The notes under the pieces are model-generated. The model saw nothing but the letters and a program-made list of their open reading frames with translations. It was not told where the DNA came from and ran no database searches. A DNA stretch of 64,000 nucleotides from Candidatus Sericytochromatia bacterium (lineage in GTDB: Bacteria; Cyanobacteriota; Sericytochromatia; UBA7694; JACMQJ01). Every line of letters begins with the position of its first letter. Positions within the stretch are counted from its first letter, which is position 1. The stretch spans positions 1-64,000 of the forward strand of contig BPII01000007.1 in the NCBI GenBank assembly GCA_026004035.1. The letters are read 5' to 3'. This document shows, piece by piece, positions 14,530-38,655 of this stretch. The position numbers and the translations under genes were made by a program.

Positions 14530-15951
14530 TTAATTTAATGTGAAATCCTCTCCTAAATAATGTTTTCTAGCTATTTCGCTATTTGCTAAATGTTCTCTAC
14601 TACCTGATTCTATTACTCTACCATCACTTAATATATATCCTCTATCTATAATTTTTAAAGTTTCTCTAACATTATGGTCTGTAATTAAAACACCAATATT
14701 TCTATTTTTTAATAAAACAATCATTTCCTTTATACCTGCTACTGCTATTGGATCTATACCAGCAAAAGGCTCGTCTAGTAATAAAAATGAAGGTTTTACT
14801 GATACTGCTCTTGCTATTTCAACTCTTCTTCTTTCTCCTCCTGACAAATCTGAACCTTTTGAATACCTTATATGAGAAATATTAAACTCATCTAATATAT
14901 CTTCTAATTGAATAAACTTAGATTCTTTTGATGTCCAATTAATTATGGAAAGTATATCTTCTATTTCTTTATTTTTAAAATTATTTTCTAGCATAAAATC
15001 TTTTAAATCATTTTTTATATCACTTTTTTTAGAATTATTTAATTCTATAAACTTATCTTGATTAAGACACTTCTTTCTTATATTCCAATAATAATTTTCA
15101 AGGCTATTCAAATAGTCTATAAATTGATTAATATTAGAAAAACTTATATTATCTTCTTCTATTTTATTAAAAACTTCTGGATTTTCATAATCTAGAATAA
15201 AAGGTATTTTTTTTATAATATCTTTTTTATTATTTGATATTTTAATACTTTCAAATAATTCATCTCTTTTCTTTTTCCACAAAAGATTTAAAAATTCTTC
15301 TAGTTTCTTTTTTTTACCAAGTTTATAAAATTTATTAAAATCTATAAAAAAACTTTCTATTTCTTGAGTTAAGTTACTAACATTTAATTCTAAAAGTTCA
15401 ATTATTTTAAAAATAGAATATAAAATTTCTGTTGAATACTTTATATTAGAGTATTTATTTATTAAGTCATTATCAATGATACTTTTTATTTCTTCTTTTT
15501 GAACATTATTTAATTTATCTTCGTTTAAAATTAAATTATAGTAATTCTCAAATTTTGGTCTTCTCCACCAAGTCCTTTCTGATTTTCTAAAAATTAACTC
15601 TATTTTCTCTTTTATCGATAATTTTGGAGCTCCACCTCTTAATTGCCATATAGCTAATATATTTTCTTCTACTGTTAATTTTCTAAAAACAGATGCTTCT
15701 TGTGGTAGATAGCCTAATCCAAGTCTTGCTCTTTTATACATAGGTTCTTTTGAAATATTTTTATTATCTACTGTTATAATACCCTTATTTGGTTTTATTA
15801 AGCCTACAACCATGTAAAAAGTAGTTGTTTTACCAGCTCCGTTTGGACCTAATAAACCTACAACTTCACCTCTTTCAACATTAATAGTTACATCATTAAC
15901 GACTTTTCTTTTTCCATATATCTTAAGTAAATTTTTAGCTTCTATACTCAT
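14530..15951 (-). CDS. lptB: LPS export ABC ATPase LptB with a large in-frame insertion
   Basis: LptB powers LPS extraction by LptFG. The N-terminal part has Walker A GPNGAGKTTT (~35-44), the Q-loop region GLGYLPQEASVFRKLTVEENI and IWQLRG. The C-terminal part has LEDILDEFNISHIRYSKGSDLSGGERRR (signature ~369), Walker B FLLLDEPFAGIDP and the switch His in TDHNVRE. These match LptB closely. Between ~108 and ~345 lie about 230 extra residues, helical and rich in Lys, Asn and Glu. LptB is normally ~240 residues; this is 473. The insert is in frame, without stops, and sits in the helical subdomain that contacts LptF/G. One base separates it from a downstream barrel gene, and the UgpC-type ATPase ends just upstream. 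Confidence 0.9.
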   Translation of the reverse strand: MSIEAKNLLKIYGKRKVVNDVTINVERGEVVGLLGPNGAGKTTTFYMVVGLIKPNKGIITVDNKNISKEPMYKRARLGLGYLPQEASVFRKLTVEENILAIWQLRGGAPKLSIKEKIELIFRKSERTWWRRPKFENYYNLILNEDKLNNVQKEEIKSIIDNDLINKYSNIKYSTEILYSIFKIIELLELNVSNLTQEIESFFIDFNKFYKLGKKKKLEEFLNLLWKKKRDELFESIKISNNKKDIIKKIPFILDYENPEVFNKIEEDNISFSNINQFIDYLNSLENYYWNIRKKCLNQDKFIELNNSKKSDIKNDLKDFMLENNFKNKEIEDILSIINWTSKESKFIQLEDILDEFNISHIRYSKGSDLSGGERRRVEIARAVSVKPSFLLLDEPFAGIDPIAVAGIKEMIVLLKNRNIGVLITDHNVRETLKIIDRGYILSDGRVIESGSREHLANSEIARKHYLGEDFTLN

Positions 15952-18947: not shown

Positions 18948-21735
18948 TTAATAAAAGAGCGGATGTATTAGTTCAAAAGTATTAATTTTATTATTGTAGT
19001 TAATTAAAACAATATGGAAAAATTCTTCTTTATCTATTCTAATAATAGACTTATACTTAGATAGTTTATCAAAAAAGCTAAATCCAGAAGATTTAGAATA
19101 TTTATTTAATATATCTATATCGCTAGGATAGAAATCTTGATTTGAAACAAAAAAAGCAATTTTTAAGGATTTATTTATTTTTTTTATAGATGTGACATCA
19201 TTTATAAAAGAGTCTATTTTACTACCATTTGAATCATAAAAATTAGAAACTGCTAAAATATTTTTATTTTTATCTTTAAAAACACAATCAAAATTATGTA
19301 TTTTATTATCTATACCTGAAAGTTCTTGAAATAAATTTAAATATTTTATATTATTTATAGCTTCATACATATATATGTAAGGTGATTTATCATCTTGATT
19401 ATGAATTAATATAAATAAATCTTTTATTATCCAATTTGATAGTGAGTAATATTTAGATTTTTCTATAAAATTTTTTATATCAAATTTATAATTTATAATA
19501 TCAACATTTACACTTTTTTCTATTTCAAACATTATATTATCACTTATTGCTTTTTTAATATCATCATTTATTTTACTATCTTTTTCAAAGATAGTATTTA
19601 AAACTATATTTATTGAATTTTTATATTTCTTTTCTAAATAAATATCTTTTACTATGCTTTTTATATTTATATTTAAAAAATCTACTCTCATTTTAAATAT
19701 ATTAAATGTAAAGTTATACTCTTTGGATAGATTTTTGAGTTCTTCATCAACTATACTTATAGAATTATCTTTATTTATTTTTATAGAGAAGACGTTATCA
19801 GCATTATTAAATGCAAAGTAAAAAATATCTTCTTCTATTCTTTTTATACTTTCTAATTTATCTTTAACACTATATTCTATAATATTACTTAATTCTTCAA
19901 AATATTTTGTATCAGGTCTTTTTATTTTATAATCTATAATTTGATTTCTTGAATTATTTTTTCTCATAACAGATATTGCAATATTAGGATCATTAGATGA
20001 AGTTGCTACTAATATAGGTGCTTCTTGATACTCTTTTATTACATCTATAAACTCTATAGAATTTTTATCTTTTATAAAAATATCTAAAAGTATAAAATCA
20101 AACTTTTTTTCTTTTATTAAATTTGATGCTATGTCTAGTGTGCTTGCATTAGTATAATTAACATTAAAATTTAGCTTTTTTATTAGATTACTTATAACTA
20201 TTTTATCCACTTCATCATCTTCTATATGTAAAAATTCAATTAATTTATTTTGTTCTTTATTTATTTTAGCTTCTACTATGCCACTAAAATTTTCATCTTT
20301 TGAGTACAGTTTTTCTATTAAAAAAGATATATCAGTATTTTTATCATCTAAATTTTTATATATTTCTAATCCTGAAGAAAGAATATTATATATTAAAATT
20401 GGATAATAAGAATTATTTCCTATCGTTGAAAAAATTTCAGCATTTTCAAAAGATTCTGGTAAAGCTTCTATTGCTTTATCACCTATTATTTTTTTGTTTT
20501 CAATATCTAATAATGATCCAATTATAAAACTATTATAAATAAATAAGTAGTATATGTTATCAAGAATACATATTCCACTGAAATTCCCAGTAATATTATT
20601 TTTTGCAGTTAAATTATTTATCAAGTCATTTGTTTTACCAAAATTTATTTTTCTTAACTCATTATTTTTAAATTTTAATAATTCTTTTATCCAAGCAAAT
20701 TCTTTTATATTTTCATTTATTATAGATATATTATTGAAACCTTCTTTATCTATAAATATCTTATCAGAAGTAGTATTAAAACTTTTACCTTTTATTATGA
20801 AAGTGGATGTTTTTTTTATATTATTAGAAAAGTGTTCTTGTTCTGAAGCAACTACAGACAAATCATAAGTTACATCTTCTAGAATATCATCATTTACAAA
20901 AGGTTTTAAATCTTTTTTTAATTCTTTCATATTTTGATATCTGTCTTGAGGATTTTTTTCTAAACATTTTTTTTACTATTGAATAAAAATTTATATTAAT
21001 TTCTGGATAATATATAGTTAAATCTTCTGGATTATTATAAAATATTTTATGAATTAAATCTTTTGTATCTTTTGAATTAGAAAAAGGTGGTTGCCCTGCA
21101 ATTAATTCATATATAGTTACACCTAAAGAATATATATCTGTTCTGAAATCAACATTTGTAGAGTTTTTTATTTGTTCAGGAGAAGAATATAATATACTTC
21201 CAACTAAATAATTATTTTCATCTATTTTACTGACTTGTTCATTAAATTTAGCTATACCAAAATCTGTTAACTTAACTAAACCTTTCCTTGAAAGAAGAAT
21301 ATTATCAGGTTTTACATCTCTATGAATAATATTATTTTCATGTGCATACTCTAGTGCTGATGCTGTTTGATAGAATATACTTGCTATTAATTTTAAAGGA
21401 ATTTTAGTTTTTACATTTTTTATTATTGTAGATAAACTTTTACCGTCTACATATTCCATTACAATATAGTAAAAATTATCACTTTCTCCAAAATCATATA
21501 TTCCAACTATGTTATGATGATTAAGTCTTGCTATAGCTTTAGCTTCAGATTTAAATCTATTAACAAACTCATCTTTTTCGTTAAGATTTACTTGAGTAAA
21601 ATTAAGAACTTTTATTGCAACATATCTTTCTAGTCTTTTATCAAGTGCGAGGTATATATCTCCCATACCTCCACTTCCAATTTTATTTTCTATTTTATAA
21701 TTTTCAGCTAACCTGAGTATTGCTTGAGAATTCAT
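18948..21735 (-). CDS. Ser/Thr protein kinase fused to a response-regulator receiver domain, one frameshift
   Basis: The N-terminal ~255 residues are a Hanks-type kinase: GSGGMGDIYLA (G-loop), YVAIKVL (Lys), IHRDVKPDNILL (catalytic loop), LTDFGIAKF (DFG) and SSPEQ. The kinase frame breaks in an eight-base A run (20967-20974). Removing one A gives the usual kinase end CLEKNPQDRYQNMKEL and continues into the next 660-residue frame, for 928 residues in total. After ~230 unassigned residues comes a receiver domain (~500-620) with the IEDDE acid pocket, phospho-acceptor Asp in ILLDIF, VATSS and the conserved Lys in DYKIKRP. The last ~300 residues are unassigned. No transmembrane helix is seen, so it is probably cytosolic. 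Its start ATG overlaps the stop of the CZB gene (ATGA), implying a common operon and function. Confidence 0.82.
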
Positions 21736-22194
21736 TTGTTATCAACCATTTCTACATAAAGTTGTAATAAAAGTTCTTTTACTTTATTTGAATAAATCGT
21801 ATAATTTCCTTCTTGTAATAATTTTAAAGCTTCATCTTTTTTTCCTTCAATTGATTTCTTTAATACTTCTCCAGCTTCTTTGTGAAAAGCTTGATGAGTA
21901 TTTTTTAACTCAAGTATTTTTTCTCCAAGAATTTTACTACCATCTCCATATATCCATTTACCTAAAACACATTTATTATCAACACAAATATCCTCAACCT
22001 TTAAATTTTCATTACTTTGACCATTTATAAAGTTTAGTAATCTCTCCTTCCATTTTAAGTGTGCATCTATTGCTCCCTTAAAATCTAAACCATTTAGTGA
22101 ATCTTCTTTTATTATTTGTTTCTCGTCTATACTAGATATTTCTTCATCTGAAATACCAAATAATTTTTTTTTTTAACCAATTAAATATACCCAT
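21732..22194 (-). CDS. CZB (chemoreceptor zinc-binding) domain protein, one frameshift
   Basis: The start MGIFNWLKKK is followed by an 11-base A run (22164-22174). With one A removed the frame continues LFGISDEEISS and then DFKGAIDAHLKWKERLLNFI, CVDNKCVLGKWIYGDG and HQAFHKEAGEVL. This is the CZB pattern: first His in AHLKW, the Cys in CVLGKW, and the two His of H..FH that bind zinc in chemoreceptors and the diguanylate cyclase DgcZ. The total is ~153 residues: the domain with a short N-terminal tail and no membrane helix. Its stop overlaps the kinase start by four bases, so it is probably the sensor or partner of that kinase. As written, the frame is broken near the N-terminus, which is why a simple ORF scan misses it. 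Confidence 0.8.
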
Positions 22195-22698: not shown

Positions 22699-23643
22699 TA
22701 TAAATTCCCCCATTCTTCTAATTTCATAAGTCTTTTTATTAAATCAAATTTTTTATTATTATCTTTTTCTTTTCCAAAGAAATGTATTAGTGGTCCATGA
22801 ACTCTTGTTGCCCAAGCTTCTTCATTATGTTCAGCATTTTCATGTATGTATTTTAATACATCATTAGATTTTACTTTTGATATATTGTCATAAATTAGAT
22901 TTATATTATCTATCATATTTTGTGGATTACTTCCTTCTCTTGTTCCTCCATCTAACCATATTTTAGAGTATGAAAAATTTATTTTTTCTTTTAAAGATTC
23001 TTTATTATTCCACCAAAACGAAGGAGACATAAACCCAGCTTTTCCAAAATAGTTACTATAATTGTTTATAATATAAAAAGATATTAGCCCACCAAGAGAA
23101 GAACCTAACAATGCCGTATTATCCCTATCTAATTTTGTTCTATAATTTTTATCTATAAATGGCTTTAAATCTTTTATAATAAACTCAGCATAATTCTTAC
23201 CATTTCCTCCACCATATTGTGAATCAGTGGTCCAGGTATATTCATTTATTCTTTCAGTAAGTCCATTATATATACCAACAACAATTATTTCTTCTATTAC
23301 ATTTTTTTTTTATCAAGTAATCCACTTTTTCATCAACATACCATTCTTTACCAAATGCACCAGTGTATTTATCAAAAATATTTTGACCATCATGCATATA
23401 TAAAACAGGATATCTTTTATTATTATTTGAATTATACGAAGGAGGTAGATAAATAACTATTTCTCTTTGCCCTGATTTTAACTTAGTTGTTTTTATAGTA
23501 TGATAACGAATATCACCAGTTGTAGTAGATTTATTATTTAATGATAAAACTTTAGTATTATTATTTAAATTTAAATTATTTTGTAAGTTAGAGCTACAAG
23601 AAACTAGTATTGATGATAATAATAAAGAAAAAAAATATTTCAT
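22698..23643 (-). CDS. Lipoprotein esterase of the enterochelin-esterase/esterase D type, one frameshift
   Basis: A lipoprotein signal peptide (MKYFFSLLLSSILVSC, lipobox LVSC) is followed by REIVIYLPPSYNSNN, RYPVLYMHDGQNIFD, the nucleophile elbow LGSSLGG and FMSPSFWWN, the layout of the COG2819/COG2382 esterases. A His in HNEEAWATR near the C-terminus fits the catalytic triad. The frame is broken in a ten-base A run (23302-23311). Removing one A reads VIEEIIVVGIYNG and restores 314 residues. It is probably tethered to a membrane facing the periplasm or outside. Its ATG overlaps the lipase stop (TAATG) and its stop overlaps the Mpo1-like start, so the three are translationally coupled. Confidence 0.82.
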
Positions 23644-27959: not shown

Positions 27960-30900
27960 ATGGAAAATTTTAAAGTTTTAATAGTAGAAGACCAGAGTAT
28001 AATAGCAAAAGACATAAAGACAATACTTGAAAGATTAGGTTATACTATATGTGGTATTGCTCATGATACAAATTCAGCTTTAGATTTAGCTTTTAAAACA
28101 AAGCCAGACATAATAATAATGGATATTGTATTGAATAATAATGAAAGTGGTATAAATACATATGCTAAAATAAGTGAAAAAATTGATATTCCAGTAATAT
28201 ATTTAACAGCACATACTAATAAAGATTTAATAAATAAAGCAAAAAATACTAAACCTTATGCCTATATTTTAAAACCATTTGAAGAAAAAGAACTTGATAT
28301 AAATATTCAAATTGCTATCTACAAGCACATAGTAAATAAAGAATTAGAAGCTGAGAGATTATTTAGTAATAAAATAATAAATACCATTTCTCAAGGTATA
28401 ATAGTATTTTCAAATGATTTAGAAATTATAATGATAAATAATTATGCTAAAGATTATATAAACCTTTATAAAAATGATTTATTAGAAAAATCTATAAAAA
28501 TAGATGATATTTTTTTAGAAAATATATTGGATGATTTAGTTAAAAATAATAATAAAAATATTATACTTAATGAAAGCAGATTTTATTTTAAAAAAACTAA
28601 TAAGAAAATAATAGCAAATTCTTCAATATCTAGTATAAGTGATAATCTTTTTATATTAGTTTTTCAAGATATTACAGATATAAGAGAAGCAAAAAAAAAT
28701 AGTAAATTTCATAATAGAAGATACATCTATTTACATAGGACAAGATTTTTTTAATAAAATAGTAGAAGAACTTACAAAATTATTTGAAGTTGTAAAAGTC
28801 TCTATAGTAGAAAAAAATCAAGAAGAGTTAAATATTATTGCTACTTATTCAGATTTATCAAAGGATCCAAAAATTAAAAATGATTTTAATTTACTAATAG
28901 ATTTACATAATAATTTAGGATTTATTTTAATAGAAAATGATTCTGAAATAGATTACTCTATGATAAACAAATATAAAAATCTAATTAATTATATAAAACA
29001 AAGAACATCTGTTGAACTAGAAAGAAGAAAAATAGAGTTAGAACTAAAAAATAAAGAAAAATTATACAAAGATTTAGCTAATTCAACTCCTCAAATAATT
29101 GTTGAAATAGATAAACAAGGTAATATTTTATTTTTAAACGAACAAGGAATAAAAAATTTTAATTTAATTAATTACAAGGGTGAAAATATTTTTAAGTTTA
29201 TAGATAAAGAATACATAGAAAGATTCAAAGATGATATTAACTCTTTAAACAAAAAGTCTTTTATTAATCCTTGTGAATATAGGTTTATTAAAGAAAATGA
29301 TAAAAGCTTCCCCTGTATTTTACATATGAATAAAATAAGTAAAAGTATAATAAGGTGTTTTATTTCTGATATTTCAAAGTTAAGAACAACTGAAATTGCT
29401 TTAAAAGAAAGTGAAGAATTATACTCACTTACATTAAGAGGTATTAATGATGGATTTTGGGATTGGAATATAGAAAAAAATAAGATATTCTTTTCTCCAA
29501 GATGGAAAGAAATTCTAGGTTATGATGAAGATGATAATTTAGACTTAAACTTTTGGTTTTCAAGCATACATAAAGATGATATAGATTATTTTAAAAATAC
29601 TTTAGATTATTTTATAAATAAAACTGATTTAGACAAAATAGAGTTAGAATATAGAATAAAAAATAAAAGTGGCAATTATATATGGGTTGTTTGTAATATA
29701 AATTCTATCAGAGATAAGAATAATAAAGCAAAAAGAATAGCAGGCTATCATTCAGATATAACTATTCATAAATCAAAAGAGCAATTATTAGAAAACTTAT
29801 TATATAATGTTTCTCATGATTCTTTAACTGGCTTACCAAATAGGAATTTTTTTATAGAAAAATTAGAAAAAGCTTTTTTATTATCAAAAAATAAAGATGA
29901 AAAGTTATTTGCAGTTTTATTCATAGATATAAATAGATTTAAAATAATAAATGATAGCTTAGGACATTCAGCAGGTGATAATTTTCTTGTAAAAGTGGCA
30001 GAGAGACTTAAAACACTTGTAAATGAAAATGTTATACTATCTAGACTTGGTGGAGATGATTTTGCAATTTTGTTACAAAATATAAATGATGAAGATGAAG
30101 CTATAATTTTTTCAAAAAAAATCATACAAATAATTCAAGAACCTTTTATTATAAATGAAAAAGAAGTTTTTGCATCTGTAAGTATAGGTATTTCTGTAAG
30201 TAATAGAAATCATAATTATGCTGAAGAAATGTTAAGAAATGCTGATTTGGCAATGTATAAGGCAAAAAAAACAGGAAAAAATAATTTTGAAATATTTAAC
30301 CCCAAAATGCATAAAACAACTTTTGAAATTTTAGAACTTGAAACAGATTTAAGAAACGCTATAAAAAGAAAAGAATTTGCTTTATATTACCAGCCTATAA
30401 TTTCTCTAATATCAGGAAAGATAATAGGTTTTGAAGCATTATTAAGATGGTATCATTCTAAAAAAGGATTAATATCTTCTGATAAATTTATACCTATTGC
30501 TGAAGAAACAGGGTTAATAGTACCAATAGGTAATTGGGTTATAAAAAAATCTTGTAAGCAAATAAAAAAATGGCAAGAAAAATTTGGAAACTTAAGTATA
30601 AGTGTTAATTTATCAACAAAACAATTTTACTATGATGAACTAGTAGAAGATATAATAGATATTTTAAATATTACAAAAATAGATCCACATAGCTTGAAAC
30701 TTGAAATAACAGAAAGTTCAATAGTAGAAAACTTTGATAATGTTAAAGAAATTTTACTAAAGTTGAAAGAGTTAAATATACAAATACAAATAGATGATTT
30801 TGGAACTGGTTATTCTTCATTAAGTTATTTACATAGATTCCCTGTTAATACTATAAAAATAGATAAAAGCTTTATAAATACAATAAATCTAGATAAAGAA

Positions 30901-31098
30901 AAATTAGAAATTGTAAAAACTATAATAAATTTAGCAAAAAATCTTAATATGGATGTTATAGCTGAAGGCATAGAGAATAAAGAACAATTAAATATATTAA
31001 GAAGTTTAGATTGTAATTATGGTCAAGGTTATTTTTTCTCTAAACCATTAAGTAATGATATAATAGAAGAATTAATGTTATCTAATCCTAAATGGTAA
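27960..31098 (+). CDS. Response regulator with PAS domains and GGDEF-EAL output, one frameshift
   Basis: This protein makes or breaks cyclic di-GMP under phosphorelay control. Order: receiver domain (VLIVEDQSIIAKDIK, Asp in IIIMDIVLN, LTAHT, LKPF), a PAS-like region, a PAS at ~380 (NSTPQIIVEIDKQGN), a PAS/PAC at ~500 (GFWDWNIEKNKIFFSP), GGDEF at ~696 (LSRLGGDDFAILL) and EAL at ~822 (GFEALLRW, LEITESS, IDDFGTGYSS, IKIDKSF, AEGIEN). All EAL metal and catalytic residues I can check are kept, so phosphodiesterase activity is likely. The GGDDF active site is intact but there is no RxxD inhibitory site. The frame breaks in an A9 run (28691-28699). Removing one A joins both parts into 1,045 residues. 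gatC follows 15 bases after. Confidence 0.88.
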
Positions 31099-35723: not shown

Positions 35724-37266
35724 ATGAATACCTTTACTATAAAGAATCCTTCATTATCTCAAGAATTATACTCTTTACAAGAAGAAAATAATATTGAAGA
35801 TATATTCAAAATAGCTAGTAATAGTTTTTTTGAAACTTCTAAAATGACAATAGAAGAAAGATTATCGTATATAGACAAAGTTCAAAAATATATACTAAAA
35901 AATAAAGAATACATTATAGATAAAATTATTGCTGAAACAGGAAAGGCAAGGTTCGATGCTCTCACATCTGAAATATTTGGGGTTTTAGACTTAATAGAGT
36001 ATTTAAAGAAAGATGCTAAAAATCTTTTAAGTGATAAAATAATACATACTCCTAGTGCATTAATGGGTAAAAAATCCAAAATATTTTATGAACCATTAGG
36101 TATAGTTCTTGTTATTTCTCCTTGGAATTATCCTTTTTATCTTACATTAGTTCCTGCTTTAACAGCTTTTACAGCAGGTAATTCTGTTATAATAAAGCCT
36201 TCGGAAATAACGCCTTTAAAAGGACTATTAGAAAAAATTTTTCAAAATTGTTCAATGAAAAATTTTATACAAGTAGTATATGGTGGAAAAGAAACAGGAG
36301 AAAAACTTATAGAACAAAGGCCAGATAAAATATTCTTTACAGGTAGTGTTAAAAACAGGTAGAAAAATTATGGAAAAAGCATCTAAATATTTAATACCAC
36401 TTGAATTAGAACTTGGTGGAAAAGATGCTATGATAGTTTTTGAAGATGTGAATATAGAAAGAACTGTTAATGGTGCATTATGGGGTGCATTAACAAATGC
36501 TGGTCAATCTTGTACATCTGTAGAAAGATTATATGTTCAAGAAGAAATATATTCAAGATTTATAAATAAATTGGAAGAAAAAATAAGTAAATTAAACTTA
36601 CCTACAGATAATCAAGATAAATTTAATAATTTTGATATGGGATATATGACAGCAGAGTTTCAGATAAAAATTGTTGAAGAGCATATAAAAGATGCCTTAG
36701 AAAAAGGAGCTAAAATAATCACTGGTGGAAAAAGACAAGAAAACTCAATGTTTTTTCCACCAACAATAATAACTAATGTTAATAATTCTATGAAAATACT
36801 TAATGAAGAAACCTTTGGTCCTGTAATTCCAATAATAAAATTTTCAACAGAAGAAGAAGTAATAAAACTGGCTAATGAAACTGAATATGGTCTTAGTGCT
36901 AGTGTTTGGACAAAAGATATTGCAAGAGCTGAAAGAGTAGCAAGAAAATTAAAAGTTGGTAATGTATCAATAAATAATGTAATGCTAACTGAAGCTAATC
37001 CATATTTACCTTTTGGTGGTTATAAATATAGTGGATTTGGAAAAACAAAAGGTCAAGAAGGATTATATGCTTTTTGTAATATAAAATCAATTATGATAGA
37101 CTCACAAAGTAATAAAATAGAAGCTAATTGGTATCCATATACAAATAATAAATACAAGTATTTTTCAAAACTTACAGACTCTCTTTTTTCTGGTGGAATT
37201 AAATTACTAAAAATGGCTATACCTGGTTTAAAGTTAGAAAATATAGCAAATAAGGAAAGATTATGA
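35724..37266 (+). CDS. Aldehyde dehydrogenase, one frameshift
   Basis: This NAD(P)-dependent enzyme oxidises an aldehyde to the acid. Visible motifs: VISPWNYPFYLTLVPAL (cofactor binding), IIKPSEITP, FFTGSV, then LELGGKDAMIVFEDV with the general-base Glu, and NAGQSCTSVERLYV with the catalytic Cys. The break is at an A5 run (36351-36355). Removing one A gives FFTGSVKTGRKIMEKASK and 513 residues. A C-terminal hydrophobic segment (FSGGIKLLKMAIPGL) may associate with the membrane, as in fatty-aldehyde or coniferyl-aldehyde types. Its last codons overlap the GMC oxidoreductase start (ATGA), which suggests alcohol-to-acid oxidation in one operon. Confidence 0.88.
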
Positions 37267-38655
37267 TAGAAAAATTTTATGACTTTATAATAGTTGGTTC
37301 AGGTGCTGCTGGTGGAGTATTAGCATATAATCTTAACAAAAGTAGAGCTAAAGTTTTATTAATAGAAGCAGGTAAATTTTTCAGAAAAGATACATTCCCA
37401 AGAACTGAATTTGAATATACAACTCAACTTTTTTGGGGAGGAGGACTAGAATTTGATAAAAATGGAAAAATGGCTTATCTTAGAGGTAAATGTGTAGGTG
37501 GAACTACAATAGTTAATCAATGCTTACTAGATAGATTTGATGAAGTAGCTTTCTCAGAGTGGCGATTAATATCAGGAATAGATTTTTTTTCTGAAAATAA
37601 GATGAAAAAATATTATGATAAAATAGAGAAAAAACTTGTCTTACAAGAAATACCTGAAAAATTTTATAATAAAAATACAAAAATTTTTATAGAAGGTTGC
37701 AATAAAAACTCTTACGGATGGGCTCCGCTAAGAAGAGGGCAATCCGATTGTAATTTAGAAAATGGTAATGATTGTATAGGTTGTCTTGGAGGTTGTCATA
37801 GAGATTCTAAACAAAGCACATTAGTAGCATTTATACAAAAAGCTGAAAAGGAAAATTTAGAAATTCTATCAGAATTCTTTGTAGAAGATTTTGAACACTT
37901 TAAAGATTATGTTCTTGTTAATGGTATAAAAAAATAATGAAAAAATAACTTTAAAAACAAAAAAGTTAATATTAGCAGCTGGTTGTTTTGGAACAACAAA
38001 TATAATGCTAAAATCTGATAAAAATAAAAAAATAAAATATCTTGGAAAAGGTTTTTCTTCACATCCTCAATATATGAATTTTGGAATTTTTGATGATTAT
38101 ATAGATGCACATAAAGGAGCATTTCAAGGTGTTAAGTCAAAAGATGATAACTTTAGAAAACAAGGTTTTAAGCTGGAAAATGTTTTTGGTCCTCCTGTTT
38201 CAATAAGTATGCTTTACCCTGCCATTGGAAAAGAAAATCAAGAATTTATGAAAAATTATCGTAAATTAGCATGTATTGAAGTTGCTATAAGAGATGAAGC
38301 TGTTGGTGAGTTATATTTAGATAATAAAGGAAAATTTACTATAAAAAAAGACTTAACTGCTCAAGATAAAAAAAGAAGAGATAAAGGATTAGAAGCTGTT
38401 GAGAATATTTTTTCATCTCTTGGTGCAAAAAAAATTATTAAATCACCTTATTATTTTGGACTTCATTTAATGGGTGGTTGTCATATAGGTATAAATCCAA
38501 ATAAGTCAGTTATTAATGAAAAGTTTCAAGTTCATGAATATCCTAATGTTTATATATGTGATTCAAGTATATTTCCAAGTGCTCCTGGTATAAATCCTGC
38601 TTTAACAATTATGACATTAGCACAAAAGTTAAGTGAGGAATTGATAAAATCATGA
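37263..38655 (+). CDS. GMC-family FAD alcohol oxidoreductase, one frameshift
   Basis: An N-terminal FAD-binding loop (DFIIVGSGAAGGVLAYNL) and the family GMC box (LRGKCVGGTTIVNQ) are clear. The C-terminal GMC_oxred_C domain is present with HLMGGCHIG and VYICDSSIFPSAPGINPALTIM, including the His and Asn positions of the catalytic pair. A Cys-rich stretch (CNLENGNDCIGCLGGCHRD) resembles members in which Cys residues replace the usual substrate loop. An A7 run (37928-37934) breaks the frame. With one A removed the total is 463 residues. It overlaps the ALDH stop before it and the small-subunit ATG after it, so the three genes are coupled. Confidence 0.86.

Follow-up and report, generated by a model that had tools for sequence, protein, structure and literature searches.

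Does this locus encode a single signalling module, in which a free-standing zinc-binding CZB protein is tied to a Hanks-type Ser/Thr kinase that also carries a phosphorelay receiver (REC), or do a hybrid kinase and a CZB gene simply lie side by side? The window (the whole stretch of 64,000 nucleotides analysed here, with a GC content of 23%) lies at the beginning of contig C7, in a 2.64 Mb assembly of 46 contigs that is rated 75% complete (genome label G000). The bacterium is a relative of cyanobacteria, and its small class, represented by 18 genomes in the comparison set, is probably Sericytochromatia of the Cyanobacteriota. The coordinates given by the initial annotation are correct, and every feature that it named is present there:

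21732–22194, minus strand: gene for the free-standing CZB protein (open frame 22172..21735, stop codon 21732-21734; likely start codon ATG 22194-22192, in the other frame)
22164–22174, minus strand: A11 run at which the CZB frame changes, from frame inspection
21732–21735, minus strand: ATGA, the 4-base overlap of kinase start and CZB stop
20905–21699, minus strand: Hanks-type Ser/Thr kinase domain (PF00069, E=5.5e-58; gene start at 21735)
20967–20974, minus strand: A8 run at which the kinase frame changes; relatives pass the same place without interruption
18948–20930, minus strand: 660-aa open frame that takes in the end of the kinase, the middle region, REC and DUF7527
20237–20747, minus strand: middle region: one whole conserved domain and the opening half of the next (FSGIVEAKI...), from alignment with REC-less orthologues
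19896–20246, minus strand: receiver, inserted within the second middle domain (PF00072, E=4.6e-08; Asp codon 20082-20084)
18987–19553, minus strand: DUF7527 domain (PF24371, E=4.3e-16; 4.4e-17 in the own-genome search)

Domains of the two proteins

The overlap of the CZB gene with the kinase start is as first described. Taken with the ~160 bp that lie free upstream of the pair and a downstream gene that is convergent, it defines a unit of these two genes only. A promoter scan was uninformative in DNA as AT-rich as that of the window, returning 48 candidates against 38.9 expected.

The CZB protein matches its profile (PF13682) at E=1.2e-13, with 51.6 bits against a cut-off of 29.4, and an own-genome profile search places the domain at 21861-22061. 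Its three His and one Cys zinc ligands (in the order H, C, H, H) all align with those of E. coli DgcZ (3t9o), and the four are invariant in our CZB alignment (A3). An AF2 model built from 7 sequences is all-helical (pLDDT 86), with the CZB domain of DgcZ (3t9o) as its best PDB match in Foldseek, at a probability of 1.00 but with E=0.066 and a TM-score of 0.49-0.58. No ATG, GTG or TTG start codon lies near the beginning of the open frame; the ATG at 22194 opens MGIFNWLKKK... in a different frame, ahead of the A11 run. The initial annotation had allowed for one repair at this locus, and the frame change at the A8 run of the kinase gene bears this out; the CZB gene also needs one, at its A11 run, making two in total.

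In the repaired second gene, the Hanks-type kinase is confirmed at 196.9 bits, with the catalytic motifs all in place: GSGGMG (P-loop), VAIK, HRDVKPDN, DFG and SPE. Its best relatives in the PDB are bacterial kinases of the PknB/PrkC type (E down to 4.7e-46); matches returned by PADLOC were generic kinase matches and were rejected. The receiver, too, stands above its profile cut-off (33.6 bits against 30.2) and matches PDB 5lwk at E=4.2e-07, with which its acidic pair (EDD), phospho-acceptor Asp (in ILLDIF), T/S (ATS) and Lys (near DYKIK) align; the alpha4-beta5 region of the domain is unusual. Thus described, the catalytic, zinc-ligand and receiver residues expected of the two proteins are all kept.

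The remainder of the chain departs further from its first description. The ~230-residue middle region, at first left unassigned, matches no Pfam family at E up to 10; it falls into two parts that are conserved throughout the order, with the receiver inside the second part and not after it. The C-terminal ~300 residues, previously left unassigned, contain DUF7527 (59.6 bits against a cut-off of 27), a profile that matches all 12 family members when searched at E up to 10. We found no paper on DUF7527; the profile also matches in the Haloferax volcanii control genome, so that the domain is common to this bacterial class and haloarchaea. An AlphaFold model of the 660-aa frame, run on the single sequence without an alignment, reached a pLDDT of 34 and was set aside.

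A receiver nested in an order-wide kinase family

A search of the 59 genomes nearest to this one, with the 660-aa frame as query, revealed kinase-middle-DUF7527 proteins to be an order-wide family, most members of which are unbroken and carry no REC. The REC-less orthologues, from the same taxonomic order as the window bacterium, run in one uninterrupted frame of 796-811 aa from kinase to DUF7527; REC-less members with kinase, middle region and DUF7527 are G001:C344, G002:C74, G003:C202 and G004:C50. Where such relatives read continuously (for example, FTGYVACHARQNIFYYGFENGQQIFAV), the window protein reads FSGIVEAKINKEQ, then the receiver, then EEDIFYFAFNNADNVFSIKI, and the receiver is therefore ‘nested’ inside the second middle domain.

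The sole other genome of the window bacterium’s family in the comparison set, G001, belongs to a related genus and has an orthologue (G001:C721) whose kinase is 51% identical, and whose middle region is 37% identical, to that of the window. Here, a receiver start (NILHVEDDKIAQV) is found at the same insertion point and the frame is unbroken from kinase to receiver; the protein reads ...EDFTGYIVCSSKSLKKSKTYNILHVEDDKIAQV and the contig then ends, such that only the first ~13 REC residues are visible. As the REC-less orthologues are uninterrupted and this protein enters its receiver start without a break, the kinase-REC hybrid truly exists as a reading frame and did not arise from the repair.

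A third, diverged protein of the family, G001:C475 (L055 1-1914), has an insert at the same point that looks receiver-like by eye; the acidic pair is lost and there is no Pfam receiver match, and from its sequence we take this to be, probably, a decayed receiver. The same protein gives a weak match to DUF6036 (2e-4). In a tree computed with the inserts removed, the window protein, C721 and C475 split from 11 REC-less rows at 92/98 support, with the placement of C475 unsure on account of its long branch. Within these sequences, then, a receiver inside the second middle domain is confined to the window bacterium’s family (the window protein, C721 and, with its probably decayed insert, C475), and it was apparently gained once, in one family, whilst REC-less orthologues persisted.

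Frame changes at A/T runs

Both genes change frame at a run of A, and breaks also hit unrelated genes of the window at A/T runs. An esterase gene (PF00756; 22698-23643, minus strand) is broken near 23302, at a T10 run, and so occupies two frames; at 27960-31098 (plus strand), a receiver-PAS frame gives way to a PAS-GGDEF-EAL frame, with the break near an A9 run at 28691 and the two frames probably making up one protein; and at 37254-38652 (plus strand), two adjacent oxidoreductase-like frames are probably split at an A7 run near 37928. Beyond the window, the same genome has a REC-less kinase-DUF7527 paralogue on contig C11 (L026 2453-4857), which is broken twice and so lies in three frames. 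Counting within the window’s open frames of 200 aa or more, we found 67 A/T runs intact at length 7, 21 at length 8, 4 at length 9 and 1 at length 10; with so few intact long runs, the share of runs that are broken rises with run length. We sought rpoB as a gauge of homopolymer breaks, and it was not found in the 75% complete assembly. A further feature of the window is an LptB-like ABC ATPase gene (14530-15951, minus strand), with a large lysine/asparagine-rich insertion between the Walker A and signature parts.

Since the breaks recur at A/T runs across the genome, they look like sequencing error, and homopolymer error is their simplest account. That both genes are instead decaying pseudogenes, truly broken at their A runs, would fit the frame changes as sequenced; we consider this improbable, given that the catalytic, zinc and receiver residues are kept along with ~640 residues past the kinase break, and that like breaks in unrelated window genes and in the C11 paralogue concentrate in long A/T runs, as homopolymer errors would. 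AT-rich bacteria are known to show slippage at long runs of A, and with a GC content as low as that of this DNA the runs might be programmed sites that yield both a truncated kinase and the full kinase-REC protein. This is a highly improbable reading, given that unrelated genes of this bacterium are broken at A/T runs as well and that the orthologues in G001 and across the order have no such break; sequencing error stays the simplest account of both frame changes.

The CZB gene and proposed control of the kinase

Of the two halves of the finding, the hybrid kinase stands more firmly than its link to CZB. Few genomes of the phylum have a CZB (8 of 386), and none was found in G001, an 87% complete assembly that has the kinase-REC orthologue; there, the neighbour of C721 is a divergent PilJ-HAMP gene, and in 4 genomes it is a DUF547 gene that follows the REC-less orthologue. 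At 11 distinct CZB loci outside the window (13 locus records), no match to the window kinase appears in the examined flanks, which extend ~6 kb in most cases and are shorter on one side at contig ends; at two of the records (L069 and L071), the CZB itself falls under the BLAST cut-off used, though the Pfam profile places one there. A GTDB-wide scan with two strict peptide patterns, which samples CZB loci rather than giving a full list, returned 6, of which 2, to judge from their sequence and the length of their contigs, are the G009 and G014 loci again. Conservation of the pair in relatives was the initial annotation’s own yardstick; the pair is absent from all relatives examined, so that by this measure the joint module fails whilst the hybrid kinase survives.

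The origin of the CZB gene may be a separate one. Among the sequences found, betaproteobacterial tandem-CZB proteins come nearest to it (50% and 46% identity), as against 31-40% for CZBs of the window’s own class, and the betaproteobacterial CZB-only proteins share an MGIxDWxK-like N-terminus with it; the closeness of these relatives and their common start suggest acquisition by horizontal transfer. Two such loci (L049 4094-4900 and L050 5914-6729, both betaproteobacterial) encode two CZB repeats and nothing else detected.

With these findings in mind, we tentatively propose, with somewhat less than even confidence, that the overlapping genes make up a two-gene operon for a cytosolic signalling unit in which the kinase would be set by its nested receiver and, in trans, by the CZB protein. 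The two genes would be co-translated, and the kinase would phosphorylate Ser/Thr substrates. A cellular histidine kinase would phosphorylate the receiver Asp, shifting the accessory region and thereby setting kinase activity; the 21 HATPase_c matches in the genome indicate that phosphodonor kinases exist. The CZB protein, for its part, would bind zinc through its three His and one Cys, and loss of zinc or oxidation of the Cys might alter a CZB-kinase contact to provide a second input. On the most likely reading, a histidine kinase provides input to the Hanks kinase by way of the nested receiver, and zinc or oxidants, with less certainty, do so by way of CZB; that CZB and kinase touch, and which way each control runs, is our own inference.

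There is precedent for both kinds of control. In other proteins, output domains come under the control of a CZB by way of zinc and cysteine oxidation; for DgcZ, control by the release of zinc as the cysteine is oxidised has been reported, and for TlpD oxidation of the cysteine (PMC8262984). In the REC-phosphatase PA3346 of Pseudomonas aeruginosa, phosphorylation of the receiver stimulates a Ser/Thr phosphatase in the same chain (PMC12189002). PA3346 thus resembles the window protein in joining, in one chain, a receiver to a Ser/Thr-signalling output under its control, and differs in having a phosphatase as output and an N-terminal receiver, whereas the receiver of the window protein is nested in an accessory domain.

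Two further readings have to be set against this proposal. The CZB protein could be a bystander, probably acquired horizontally and sensing zinc or redox state with some other partner, so that kinase-REC works without it. CZB-only proteins are common, making up 27.1% of CZB sequences (PMC8262984), and other CZB-only genes adjoin unrelated genes such as mfd; the closer match to betaproteobacterial proteins than to those of its own class, and the retention of the kinase in G001 without any CZB, point the same way. The 4-base stop-start overlap and the two-gene unit, however, argue for joint expression, and we regard a bystander role as quite possible, if doubtful. The inserted receiver, meanwhile, might be structural or degenerate, never phosphorylated and serving as a scaffold or dimerisation element of the accessory region. 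Its modest profile match, its unusual alpha4-beta5 region and the state of the insert in its likely relative C475 are consistent with such a role, but the window copy keeps EDD, Asp, T/S and Lys, and we consider it unlikely. Of the two parts of the proposal, the CZB link has behind it a single overlapping pair of genes, from one genome; that zinc or redox state controls the kinase is plausible.

Every part of the two proteins belongs to a known family, and the arrangement is a real, lineage-specific variant. DgcZ of E. coli and TlpD of H. pylori have the same 3His/1Cys CZB site as the window protein, but in both the CZB shares a chain with its output (GGDEF or MCP), whereas the window encodes it as a protein of its own, with a Hanks kinase as the neighbouring output. 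A survey of CZB proteins describes seven architecture groups, none with a Ser/Thr kinase (PMC8262984). The CZB-only proteins of our own comparison (L049-L052, L068, L070 and L071) are free-standing like that of the window, with identities of 46-50% for the betaproteobacterial ones; L049 and L050 differ from it in their two CZB repeats and in having no kinase nearby. The order’s kinase-middle-DUF7527 proteins hold the same parts in a single chain, and differ in having no receiver and an adjoining DUF547 gene. Kinases of the PknB/PrkC type share the kinase domain; the window protein has a REC and DUF7527 accessory region and no PASTA repeats. No matching case of a prokaryotic kinase-receiver fusion like this one was found in the open-access literature.

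Finally, the nested receiver, set against the REC-less orthologues, offers a natural ‘before-and-after’ pair for asking how Asp phosphorylation might come to regulate a Hanks kinase. We judge it rather unlikely that the gating of one such kinase is shared between a detachable zinc- or redox-sensing CZB subunit and a nested two-component receiver; if true, this would give CZB an output beyond the seven described groups, and zinc, His-Asp and Ser/Thr signalling would meet directly. The CZB architectures described so far act mainly on chemotaxis and c-di-GMP, and a kinase output would widen the reach of zinc and oxidant sensing.
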